A program made the translations under genes and the position numbers. From Candidatus Lithacetigena glycinireducens (lineage in GTDB: Bacteria; Coprothermobacterota; HKB111), in contig QLUP01000068.1 of the NCBI GenBank assembly GCA_018725485.1, positions 1-5,570 on the forward strand: a stretch of DNA of 5,570 bases, in the 5' to 3' direction. Below, one piece after another: positions 1,900-5,568 of this stretch (position 1 is the stretch's first letter; each line of letters begins with the position of its first letter). Under the pieces are notes generated by a model. The model did not search any database. It saw nothing but the letters and a program-made list of their open reading frames with translations, and had not been told where the DNA came from.

Positions 1900-3522
1900 A
1901 TGAAAAGAAAGAAAATTTTAGGAACAATATTAAAAGTTTTGATACCGGTAGTTATCGTTATTATCCTTATGGGAACCGCTTATAATTTTTTCCGAAGACC
2001 ACAAACTTTTAATCTTTATGGGCAAGTAATTAACAGTAACGGGGAGTTTATCGTCGGAGCAAAGGTATCTCTACCTGAACGGGGAACTGAAGTATTAACT
2101 GATAGTAAAGGTAAATTCACTTTTCCTCCCCTTAAAACAGGTAAGGTAAAGATAAGGACAGAGGTAGTAGGGTTTCATCCCTATGAGGAAGAAGTAAATG
2201 GTGTAGGCGGAAACAAAATCCATCTACTCATCATCCTGGTAGAGGTAGGGAAAGAAGAAGCCCTTATTCGGATTAAGGTGTTTGATGAGGAAACGAAATC
2301 CCTTCTGGTAGGCTCGGTAATTAACATAGGGGAAACAGTCTGGTACACAAATGAAGATGGTTTAGCTACCATTCCTCTAAAAGCCGGGCTTCACTCGGTG
2401 GAAGTGTTACATCCGGGTTATCAACCGTATAAAGTATTAGGGGTAGAAACTTTTACTGGTAAAACTACCAATCTTAAAGTAGCCTTAAATAAAGAAAGAC
2501 CCTTACCCGGAACCTACGGTAACCTGGAAGTTAAAGTAACTGATGCCCAAACAGGTAGAGCTATATCCCAGGTAACCGTTCAGGTGGGAGAAAAGAAAGG
2601 ACTCACCGATATTGAGGGCTACCTTTTAATAACCGAAGTCCCTGCTCAGAGCTCCGAAGTGGTTTTTACTGCTTCCGGATATCTGACTTACAAAGAAGTG
2701 GTATCCATAAAAGTTAACGAGAACACCATGTTAAATGTAAAATTGCTTTCCGGCCAACAGGGGCGTGGTGGGATAACCGGGATAGTCAAAGATAGTTCTA
2801 ACAGTTTACCTTTAAGCGGAGTATCTGTAGAAGGAAAAACACTTAAGGCGCAGACAGGTTTAGATGGGAGATTTGTTTTTCCTAACTTAGTCCCCGGTCC
2901 TTTAACTTTATCTATAAGTTTAAAGGGTTATCAAACCGTATGGCGAGAAATACAAATTGAAGCTGGAAAAGTTTTACAACTGGAGATATTCTTGGAGAAA
3001 ATTGTGGTAGATATAAATTTTTCAGGTAGGGTAACGGGTATAAATAACGAAGCAGTCGTTAGGGCTCGGGTTTCAGTAGGGAGCACCCAGGCTTTAACCG
3101 ATGAAGAAGGAAGGTTTTTCCTGAAAATAAGAAATGATGAAAAGACTGTTATTTTTGAAAAAGAAGGGTTCTATACTCATACAGCTACCTTGCCCGATGA
3201 CCCTACTATAAAAGATGTTTATCTGGATATTCTCATTTATAAAATTGTAGCGGATGGTACTTACATCGGCAAAGCTTCCTCTTTCCAGGGAGAGGTGGAA
3301 ATGAAGGTAGAAGTAACCTCGGGAAAAATTAGGGGGTTGAAAGCTCTTTCTTATGAAGGGAGTTCTGCTTTTATGGAAGCGTTTCAGGAAAAACTGCTGG
3401 AAGTAGCTCGCGAGGTATTACGAATGACACCAGGGGATTTCTTAAGGAAGTATAATCCCGTTGATAGTGGTCCAAAAGAGGTTATTCTTTTAGCTATCAA
3501 GAAAGCGCTGAGCATACCTTAA
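1900..3522 (+). CDS. Membrane-anchored protein with five carboxypeptidase-regulatory-like modules and a C-terminal FMN-binding-like domain
   Basis: This 540-residue protein has a basic N-terminus (KRKK, residues 2-5) and one hydrophobic segment (about 7-27). It is most likely a signal anchor with the rest outside the membrane; I see no lipobox cysteine. Five beta-sandwich modules of about 75-85 residues follow, at roughly 37-114, 121-196, 207-283, 291-366 and 373-445. Each has a T-x-x-G-x-(F/L) turn (TDSKGKF 67, TNEDGLA 150, TDIEGYL 236, TGLDGRF 319, TDEEGRF 400) and then a G(Y/F)xx(Y/H/V) motif (GFHPY 91, GYQPY 173, GYLTY 260, GYQTV 343, GFYTH 423). This fits the CarboxypepD_reg/PEGA type of surface module. 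Residues about 450-538 (DGTYIGKASSFQGEVEMKV, then SGKIRGL) resemble an FMN_bind (NqrC/RnfG-like) domain, but the usual SGAT threonine motif is replaced by VDSGPKE. ATG 1900 keeps the basic anchor; it lacks a Shine-Dalgarno and follows a promoter directly. No specific function can be assigned. Confidence 0.85.
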   Translation: MKRKKILGTILKVLIPVVIVIILMGTAYNFFRRPQTFNLYGQVINSNGEFIVGAKVSLPERGTEVLTDSKGKFTFPPLKTGKVKIRTEVVGFHPYEEEVNGVGGNKIHLLIILVEVGKEEALIRIKVFDEETKSLLVGSVINIGETVWYTNEDGLATIPLKAGLHSVEVLHPGYQPYKVLGVETFTGKTTNLKVALNKERPLPGTYGNLEVKVTDAQTGRAISQVTVQVGEKKGLTDIEGYLLITEVPAQSSEVVFTASGYLTYKEVVSIKVNENTMLNVKLLSGQQGRGGITGIVKDSSNSLPLSGVSVEGKTLKAQTGLDGRFVFPNLVPGPLTLSISLKGYQTVWREIQIEAGKVLQLEIFLEKIVVDINFSGRVTGINNEAVVRARVSVGSTQALTDEEGRFFLKIRNDEKTVIFEKEGFYTHTATLPDDPTIKDVYLDILIYKIVADGTYIGKASSFQGEVEMKVEVTSGKIRGLKALSYEGSSAFMEAFQEKLLEVAREVLRMTPGDFLRKYNPVDSGPKEVILLAIKKALSIP

Positions 3523-3569: not shown

Positions 3570-3591
3570 GTTTCCGCTTTTCCATACGATT

Positions 3592-3629
3592 GGGGACAGT
3601 CCCCATGTGGATTTTAGGGGACTGTCCCC
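3592..3629. repeat. 13-bp perfect inverted repeat, GGGGACAGTCCCC type
   Basis: GGGGACAGTCCCC (3592-3604) and its exact reverse complement GGGGACTGTCCCC (3617-3629) are separated by 12 bases. Each arm is itself nearly palindromic (GGGGAC, one base, GTCCCC), so the element can fold as one 13-bp hairpin or as two small ones. It is far richer in G+C than its surroundings and has no T tract after it. From memory, sequences of this shape occur as dispersed copies in many bacterial genomes, sometimes near REP-associated (IS200-like) transposases; no transposase lies in this window. Confidence 0.7.
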
Positions 3630-3657
3630 TTTGCTGCGCAGAGACAATAGAAACGAA

Positions 3658-4047
3658 TTAAAATTCTACCGCTATTGACTCAATCTCTATTAAAGAACCC
3701 CGGGGAAGCCCTTTAACTTCTATGGTGGTACGAGCCGGATATATTTCCTTAAAGAACTCTTTATAGACCTCGTTGAAATCGGCAAAATCCTGTAAATTGG
3801 TTAAATACACGGAGTTTTTAACTACATTATCCAGTGTAAGGCCACCTTCTTCCAAAAGAGCCTCGATATTCAAAATTACTCTTCTTGCCTGTTCTTTGAT
3901 ATTTTCGCCAACCATCTCACCAGTTTCCGGGTCAAGGGGTATCTGACCGGACAGGAAAATGATTTTCTTAAACCCTTCTACCTCAATTGCCGGTGAATAA
4001 GGTCCGATAGCTTTTGGAGCTTTAGAACTTTGCAGAATTTTTTTCAT
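3658..4047 (-). CDS. ridA: RidA (YjgF/YER057c/UK114) enamine/imine deaminase
   Basis: This 129-residue protein has the full length of the RidA family. RidA is a small trimeric cytoplasmic enzyme that hydrolyses reactive enamines and imines, such as 2-aminoacrylate released by PLP-dependent Ser/Thr/Cys lyases, to keto acids and ammonia. Visible signatures are IGPYSPAI (14-21, including Y17), FLSGQIPLDPETGE (31-44), NIEALLEEGGL (60-70), VKNSVYLTNLQDFADFN (76-92) and the C-terminal PARTTIEVKGLP (104-115) followed by IEIESIAVEF. The catalytic arginine is R106 and the conserved glutamate E121, matching R105 and E120 of E. coli RidA, so an active archetypal RidA is expected. The start is certain: a strong AGGGAGG (4060-4054 on the - strand) precedes the ATG by a few bases. 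The gene lies 16 bases after the SCIFF maturase stop and is most likely co-transcribed with it. Whether it has a role in that system or is only a housekeeping passenger cannot be decided here. Confidence 0.96.
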   Translation of the reverse strand: MKKILQSSKAPKAIGPYSPAIEVEGFKKIIFLSGQIPLDPETGEMVGENIKEQARRVILNIEALLEEGGLTLDNVVKNSVYLTNLQDFADFNEVYKEFFKEIYPARTTIEVKGLPRGSLIEIESIAVEF

Positions 4048-4063: not shown

Positions 4064-5416
4064 TTAATCAGACTGTTTTAATCTGGCTTTAATCCACAAC
4101 GCCCATTCTAATCTTTTTTTAAGAAGAGCGCACTCTAAGTCATCCGGTAGATAGATACTATCATTGGCAAAATAATGATTAGCATGGCATCCACCGCTGC
4201 AATAAAATCTTGCCCAACATTGCAAACATTTATCCTTGGTAGAAAAATCAAGGGCTATAAACCTGTTTCTCAGTTCTATGTTCTTCAGACCTTCGCTTAG
4301 GTTTCCTAAAATAAAGCCAGTTTCACCAACAAACTGGTGGCAGGGATAAATATCCCCTTCAGGAGAAATAGCGATGTACTCCCGACCAGCACCGCAACCC
4401 CCGGTCCTTCTTTTAAGGTCGGGTCCCCTCATAGGATCCAGAAGGAAATGGAAAAAGGTTATATCTCTACCTTTAAGCCTTTCTTCTAAGTACCATTGGG
4501 ATAGTAATTCATATTGCCGGAATATTTCGGGTAAATCATCTTCTTTTAGGGCAAAACTATGTTTTTTCCCCACTACCGGTTCCATGGAGACTACCGGAAA
4601 ACCCTCATTAAAAAGATATTGGGCAGAGTCAGTGAAATGAAGTGTCTGACTGGTGTAAGTGCCACGAATATAGAAAGGTGGAGGGTTTTTAGAAAGGTAT
4701 TCTTTAATATTTTGAGATACAGTTTTATATGAACCCTTACCCTGAGGGTTAAGACGGTAAAGGTCGTTGGTCTCCTCTGAACCATCGAGGGACAGTACGG
4801 TTTCAATGCGGTTATCAATCAGAAACTCCTGAACGGGTGGGGTCAACAAAATAGCATTGGTGGTCAGGGTAAAGTTGATTTTCCTTCCTTCTTCCAGGGC
4901 TTTTTTGTTCCCATAGTAAACAGTATCCTGTAAAACAGGAAAGTTTAAAAGCGGTTCGCCACCAAAAAAATCAACTTCCATTTCCTCGTAAGGGGAGTTC
5001 TGGAAAAGAAAATCAATAGCACCGCGGGCTTTTTCAGAATTCATAGCTAATAGACGCTTAGAAGCAGTTTTATTCCTGACAAAACAGTAAGAACAGGCAA
5101 GGTTGCACCTCCCCTCAATTAAAAGGCACATACCCTGCAGGTGAGGGGGATATTCTGCTGGATAAACTAAGGGTGGGGAATAGAGAGCTTCTTCCTGATA
5201 AAGAGTTAAAAGTTCATTAAAAACTTCTTTGTTTGCCTGAGGAATTTCAGAGAGGGAAAGTTCTCCTAACTGGTTCACATTTTTAAGAATATCATAGGTT
5301 TCAGCTGAAATTTCTATGAGGGTGTCCGAATTAACATCCAGGGCAAGGAATGCTTTACCACAACGGAAAAGGTGAACCTGTCCCTTCCCTTTCTTCAGGG
5401 TAGAATTTTCCTGCAA
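4064..5416 (-). CDS. scfB: SCIFF peptide maturase, thioether-forming radical SAM/SPASM enzyme
   Basis: This 450-residue enzyme belongs to the family (TIGR03974; CteB, Tte1186) that uses radical SAM chemistry to link a cysteine sulfur to a threonine carbon in the SCIFF precursor, giving a ranthipeptide. Residues about 13-85 fit the PqqD-like leader-recognition domain (VHLF, LDVNSDTLIEIS, TYDIL). The radical SAM cluster motif is C104-NLA-C108-SY-C111-F, with FGGEP at 151-155. The SPASM domain holds C341, C359, the CX2CX5CX3C set C397/C400/C406/C410, and C429, so all seven usual ligands are present. Family-specific stretches include RGTYTSQTLHF (251-261), FFHFLLDPMRGP (321-332), GCGAGREY (340-347) and YPCHQFVGE (357-365). 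The start is TTG at 5416, 2 bases after the peptide gene's stop. The frame is closed at 5434-5432, and no ATG, GTG or other TTG occurs before M96, which would remove the recognition domain. The precursor gene lies directly upstream and ridA 16 bases downstream. Confidence 0.94.
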   Translation of the reverse strand: MQENSTLKKGKGQVHLFRCGKAFLALDVNSDTLIEISAETYDILKNVNQLGELSLSEIPQANKEVFNELLTLYQEEALYSPPLVYPAEYPPHLQGMCLLIEGRCNLACSYCFVRNKTASKRLLAMNSEKARGAIDFLFQNSPYEEMEVDFFGGEPLLNFPVLQDTVYYGNKKALEEGRKINFTLTTNAILLTPPVQEFLIDNRIETVLSLDGSEETNDLYRLNPQGKGSYKTVSQNIKEYLSKNPPPFYIRGTYTSQTLHFTDSAQYLFNEGFPVVSMEPVVGKKHSFALKEDDLPEIFRQYELLSQWYLEERLKGRDITFFHFLLDPMRGPDLKRRTGGCGAGREYIAISPEGDIYPCHQFVGETGFILGNLSEGLKNIELRNRFIALDFSTKDKCLQCWARFYCSGGCHANHYFANDSIYLPDDLECALLKKRLEWALWIKARLKQSD

Positions 5417-5418
5417 GC

Positions 5419-5556
5419 TTATTTGCCTGGTTTAAGAAAGTTTGTCTGGTTGGCTATAGTACAGGAGGTTTTACAAGCCGATTGGCAGGATACTTTGAAC
5501 CTTTCCAGCGTTAAGGTCTTAAGGGCTTTTTTGAAAATTATTTTTAATTTTTTCAT
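5419..5556 (-). CDS. scfA: Reduced, three-cysteine SCIFF-family ranthipeptide precursor
   Basis: This 45-residue peptide is the probable substrate of the adjacent maturase. Residues 23-33 read SCQSACKTSCT and 34-38 IANQT, matching the highly conserved core of SCIFF peptides (usually CQSACKTSC followed by TVANQ). Cysteines are C24, C28 and C32 only; family members normally have six within about 45 residues. The N-terminal half is cysteine-free and basic (K2, K3, K5, K9, K10, K13, R19, K21) with interspersed L/I/F, and the C-terminus is NFLKPGK, where relatives usually have a last cysteine. A strong AGGAG (5568-5564) stands 7 bases before the ATG at 5556, and the TAA at 5421-5419 lies 2 bases before the maturase start, so expression is coupled. 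SCIFF thioether formation was reported between Cys32 and Thr37 of a characterised precursor; C28 and T33 have the same five-residue spacing here. The promoter must lie beyond the window end. No upstream cysteine codons occur in other frames, which argues against a simple frameshift. Confidence 0.88.
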   Translation of the reverse strand: MKKLKIIFKKALKTLTLERFKVSCQSACKTSCTIANQTNFLKPGK

Positions 5557-5563
5557 CTTATTT

Positions 5564-5568
5564 CTCCT
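5564..5568 (-). promoter_or_regulatory. Ribosome binding site of the SCIFF-like peptide gene
   Basis: AGGAG on the - strand with a 7-base spacer to the ATG at 5556. It is close to ideal and supports this short frame as a real gene. Confidence 0.85.

Follow-up and report, generated by a model that had tools for sequence, protein, structure and literature searches.

SCIFF precursors (TIGR03973, PF13165), among them CteA/thermocellin and Tte1186a, are named for their six cysteines and are paired with radical SAM/SPASM maturases of the ScfB/CteB type (TIGR03974; PDB 5WGG). The reported modification is a single thioether whose donor is Cys32, the fourth cysteine; the acceptor was Thr37 in vitro and Thr34 (at C-gamma) upon co-expression (PMC8326336, PMC8172795). 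A review regards both the participation of the other cysteines and the reason for the differing acceptors as open (PMC8326336). In the CteB crystal, the open Aux I site is occupied by peptide Cys21 (PMC8326336), Cys255 of anSME has been identified as a fourth Aux I ligand (PMC6231123), and three AC1 and four AC2 ligands have been named for PapB (PMC10470005). Precursor cysteines are designated here in the CteA register (C1, 21; C2, 24; C3, 28; C4, 32; C5, 36; then C6), with the numbering taken directly from an Acetivibrio CteA relative (L090).

The locus described below lies in a stretch of 5,570 bp (the window), which is an entire contig of a draft genome that is 83% complete. A preliminary description of this DNA, made from the sequence alone, had proposed that it encodes a three-cysteine SCIFF peptide next to a SCIFF maturase, and that this form might represent either the minimal unit required by the enzyme or a separate subfamily.

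The three-cysteine precursor gene and its setting

The minus strand at positions 5419 to 5556 encodes a 45-residue SCIFF homologue, MKKLKIIFKKALKTLTLERFKVSCQSACKTSCTIANQTNFLKPGK, in which residues 24, 28 and 32 are the only cysteines. Both the reading of the frame and the Pfam SCIFF profile (PF13165; 33.7 bits versus a cut-off of 27) bear out the existence of this peptide beside the maturase. All three cysteine codons have counterparts in the CteA register: C24 (5485 to 5487) is the canonical C3, which is invariant in the 113 peptides compared; C28 (5473 to 5475) is C4, i.e., CteA Cys32, the published thioether donor (PMC8326336); and C32 (5461 to 5463) is C5, replaced by alanine in the two-cysteine relatives. 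T30 (5467 to 5469) corresponds to CteA Thr34, the favored acceptor, and T33 (5458 to 5460) to Thr37, the alternative one, so named from the published register (PMC8326336). C1, C2 and C6 are missing, in agreement with the proposed absence of the N-terminal and C-terminal cysteines. From the contig end up to C24, the minus strand has no TGC or TGT codon in any of its frames, and direct reading of the peptide gene found no cysteine codon 3′ of C32.

The gene is preceded by a ribosome-binding site (AGGAG, 5564 to 5568, minus strand) located 7 nt 5′ of the ATG; since the window is the whole contig, 14 nt are visible upstream of the peptide. The maturase gene (4064 to 5416, minus strand) starts 2 nt past the stop codon of the precursor. 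Further downstream lies a RidA-family gene (3658 to 4047, minus strand; PF01042), which is probably outside the mechanism. At 1900 to 3522, the window also encodes a protein of 540 aa that has a hydrophobic segment in its N-terminal part and shows several carboxypeptidase-regulatory-like repeats as well as matches to PEGA. The intergenic region 3′ of that gene (3591 to 3631) carries a near-palindrome pair, ggggacagtcccc and ggggactgtcccc, which resembles a small repeat element.

A second genome of the same genus (G001) contains the same three-cysteine peptide (locus L003; 42 of 45 residues identical), an identical AGGAG site and the gene order scfA-scfB-ridA. The three residue differences all fall before position 17, and none is found from there on; nine further codons differ silently, two cysteine codons among them (dN ∼0.03, dS ∼0.5). 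Under neutrality, 10 or more silent changes among 14 differences would be expected with a probability of ∼7e-5. No second SCIFF was found in the window's genome or in that of its sister, no six-cysteine copy was found in these two or in Coprothermobacter proteolyticus, whose genome is complete, and a search of a plasmid collection gave no match. These results bear on whether the reduced peptide could be an artifact or a relic, be it through a frameshift, an assembly error where the contig ends or degeneration of a copy beside an intact scfA elsewhere. That the peptide begins 14 nt from the end of a contig in an incomplete draft genome could prompt such a suspicion, but the sister species has the same peptide within a longer contig and at silent-site divergence, neither genome holds another SCIFF, and the complete C. 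proteolyticus genome carries a reduced form as well. The sister genome and the pattern of silent changes rule out artifact, frameshift and decay, and we give this explanation virtually no credence. The preliminary description had dismissed a frameshift for want of upstream cysteine codons, and had named a normal six-cysteine peptide in close relatives or a canonical copy elsewhere as counting against its proposal; what was found is a close relative with the three-cysteine form and no such copy. Upstream of the sister scfA (L003:400-1270), short direct and inverted repeats are densely interspersed; repeats 5′ of scfA may be the reason that the window contig breaks off where it does.

Assignment of the window peptide to the family depends on the yardstick used. 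TIGR03973 recovered it with an E value of 4e-8 but at 33 bits, below the cut-off of 50; as judged from these profile scores, the match is not one of chance. An adjoining maturase is present at a gap of 2 nt, and donor and acceptors occur in SCIFF register as C28, T30 and T33. The six cysteines that give SCIFF its name are reduced to three in the window and its sister and to two in the remaining phylum. Because the six-cysteine feature and two curated cut-offs (TIGR03973, TIGR03974) fail, the peptide is not filed as a standard SCIFF; it is a homologous variant, one that most likely functions in the same way. The earlier expectation that profile searches miss this subfamily thus holds in part: PF13165 does find the three-cysteine form, while TIGR03973 rejects it and the two-cysteine relatives score below both cut-offs (20.7 to 24.1 versus 27 for PF13165). 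Cut-offs based on six-cysteine peptides consequently overlook the two-cysteine forms.

Reduced precursors across and beyond the phylum

Eight of nine Coprothermobacterota genomes searched carry a SCIFF-like peptide, none of them above the TIGR03973 cut-off; in the ninth (G007), ∼130 bases separate the maturase match from the end of the contig, too few to show a peptide. Six of the genomes lie outside the genus of the window, among them that of C. proteolyticus (G002), which is complete and has a peptide of 39 residues. All six have a two-cysteine peptide immediately 5′ of the maturase, exemplified by MVRVIIKNELQKEEDFKGACQTACKTSATVSNVTFEPEQ and also given in the form ACQTACKTSATVSN; the peptide of one of them (G006) is cut by the contig end. 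These families keep C3 and C4 only, whereas the window peptide keeps C5 in addition. All six share one and the same 14-residue core, encoded by six different DNA sequences in which every codon varies at its third position and at no other. Confinement of the reduced form to one genus is ruled out by this phylum-wide search: the cysteine-reduced SCIFF extends over the whole phylum wherever contigs reach the site. Together with the sister genome, these forms substantiate the proposal of a separate, selected SCIFF lineage with fewer cysteines. The idea of a minimal peptide unit also gains support, but three cysteines are not the minimum, as the sister families keep two.

Comparison of 113 distinct peptides, collected with the C3, Thr34, C5 and Thr37 positions left free in the search, revealed C3, C4, K33, Thr34 and S35 to be invariant (113/113). 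Position 37 is threonine in 111 peptides and glycine in the other two (L005 and L058; CKTSCGVAN), both of which retain Thr34, an exchange that bears on the disputed acceptor. The C5 position is cysteine in 66 of the 113, a figure biased by the deliberate search for C5-less forms. Less biased samples returned C5-less peptides in 19 of 54 genomes of a small-genome phylum (that of G021), in 3/3 of another and in ∼19 of 398 Bacillota. Such peptides, with V, M, I, L or A at this position, occur in at least three phyla besides that of the window (L105-L126, L127-L145 and L067:2792-2950).

A C2-less SCIFF was sought in the same two large samples. The 398 Bacillota genomes yielded two matches, neither of them SCIFF-like, and the 54 genomes of the small-genome phylum yielded two with a stop codon after KTS in both. 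In a third survey of Bacillota, which left C1, C2, C3, C5, Thr34 and Thr37 largely free, the matches listed, once about eleven evident chance ones had been set aside, were by sequence all SCIFFs with Cys at C1 to C4 and with Thr34. Within the genomes surveyed, loss of C1, C2 and C6 was found in Coprothermobacterota only, and loss of C5 also elsewhere.

The maturase and its missing cysteine

The maturase of the window is a 450-aa protein with a TTG start. TIGR03974 is its top-scoring family, yet the score stays below the cut-off (392.6 versus 425 bits), as does that of NF047865, the PapB family (258.9 versus 340). Its predicted structure (pLDDT 87) matches 5WGG (CteB) over the full length, including the RRE domain (TM 0.89 over 448 columns). 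The radical SAM motif CX3CX2C is present as C104, C108 and C111, and all seven SPASM cysteines are in place (C341, C359, C397, C400, C406, C410 and C429); these seven correspond to the ligands named for PapB, three of AC1 and four of AC2. A Clostridiales maturase of the ScfB family (L083) had no SCIFF-like peptide in the flanks examined.

One cysteine is absent. The window enzyme has D333 (codon 4418 to 4420, minus strand) at the position of residue 339 in the 5WGG chain, which precedes the first ligand of Aux I by eight residues. This position is Asp in both three-cysteine enzymes, Ser in all seven two-cysteine enzymes and Cys in the 55 others aligned, of which 38 (CteB among them) have a peptide that is six-cysteine or was not seen and 17 have one that lacks C5; its invariance is an observation of this analysis and not a published criterion. 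As the C5-less lineages keep the maturase cysteine, it goes with C1, C2 and C6 rather than with C5, a coupling that amounts to one or two evolutionary events. By spacing alone, the residue resembles Cys255 of anSME, in a loop modeled with low confidence. These coincidences, along with the docking of C1 in the CteB crystal, led us to consider a thiol hand-over in ordinary SCIFF, an attractive but doubtful scheme. The enzyme cysteine might occupy the open Aux I site as a resting or exchange ligand, and there an N-terminal peptide cysteine would dock before C4 takes its place; Coprothermobacterota would load C4 directly, having dropped both halves of the relay. The residue missing in the reduced lineages in any case offers a concrete target for mutation in CteB.

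The branch leading to the three-cysteine maturases is very long (1.8 changes per column in a quick tree), so that substrate handling could have changed. The two-cysteine clade is also on a long branch, and the two groups stand apart in the free quick tree, whereas a constraint test preferred them as one clade (lnL +33, p-AU 0.94); the phylogeny comprises this quick tree and this one test, is unrooted and has weak deep forks. The simplest course is that C1, C2 and C6 were lost once in the phylum and C5 subsequently in the other two families, an order that presupposes a six-cysteine ancestor in an unrooted tree. The reverse polarity would make the few-cysteine form ancestral, with C1, C2, C5 and C6 added in the lineage of Bacillota and other phyla and the cross-linking mechanism unchanged. 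The missing root and weak deep forks leave room for it, and only C3 and C4 are common to all forms. However, C1, C2 and C6 stand at exactly matching positions in three other phyla and in all six- and five-cysteine lineages, and the extra maturase cysteine is found in all 55 aligned enzymes of other lineages. Since register and extra cysteine are common to the other lineages, one shared ancestral state is the simplest explanation, and we regard a few-cysteine ancestor as unlikely.

A working model and its relation to known systems

The locus as a whole probably constitutes a functional SCIFF-type ranthipeptide system, its precursor having shed cysteines dispensable for the cross-link. We propose that the adjacent CteB-like enzyme would bind the leader through its N-terminal RRE domain and generate a radical on threonine, and that the sulfur of C28 (C4) would then form one thioether to T30 (Thr34) or, less likely, to T33 (Thr37). 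This single cross-link is suggested by the retention of the donor and both acceptors in the reduced peptides and of the cluster cysteines in the enzyme. Thr34 is favored as the acceptor because it is fully invariant, while Thr37 is glycine in two peptides. C24 (C3) probably has a second, universally needed role beyond the cross-link. C1, C2 and C6 would have been lost before or early in Coprothermobacterota, along with the maturase cysteine near the first Aux I ligand, and C5 afterwards in the two other families.

A maturase that drifted to other chemistry, acting at another site, forming no thioether or using C3 instead of C4 as the donor, could account for the long branches of the three- and two-cysteine enzymes, for the scores below the TIGR03974 cut-off and for the missing cysteine near Aux I. 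Against such drift, the enzyme retains its ten cluster cysteines and the CteB fold, and the peptide its CKTS-x-T core, all without change, and we consider it improbable, more so than a few-cysteine ancestor. Taken together, the reduced peptides form a deletion series made by nature, which indicates C4 as the donor, favors Thr34 and marks C3 as the residue to be accounted for next. Our literature search, which reached few subscription papers, found none linking Coprothermobacter to SCIFF; C. proteolyticus DSM 5265 is available in culture and has a sequenced genome, and the prediction can be tested directly.

The PapB/freyrasin system (NF047865) is comparable in having a related maturase whose AC1 is likewise described with three Cys ligands (PMC10470005), but PapA has Cys-X3-Asp motifs and six cross-links (PMC8172795), whereas the window peptide lacks Cys-X3-Asp and carries the SCIFF core. 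ScfB/CteB shares with the window enzyme the RRE, radical SAM and SPASM domains, the 3 + 7 cluster cysteines and, in Bacillota relatives, ∼40% identity; the window enzyme differs in falling under the family cut-off and in the replacement of the invariant Cys by Asp (Ser in the two-cysteine lineages). Unlike the six-cysteine SCIFF precursors, the window peptide has three and those of its sister families two, with C1, C2 and C6 missing. It is like them in its SCQSACKTSCT core in register, its 45 residues, its basic leader with a K-x-I/L-K start and its gene immediately 5′ of the maturase, and the C4 position is residue 28 in the window, 24 in C. proteolyticus and 32 in CteA.
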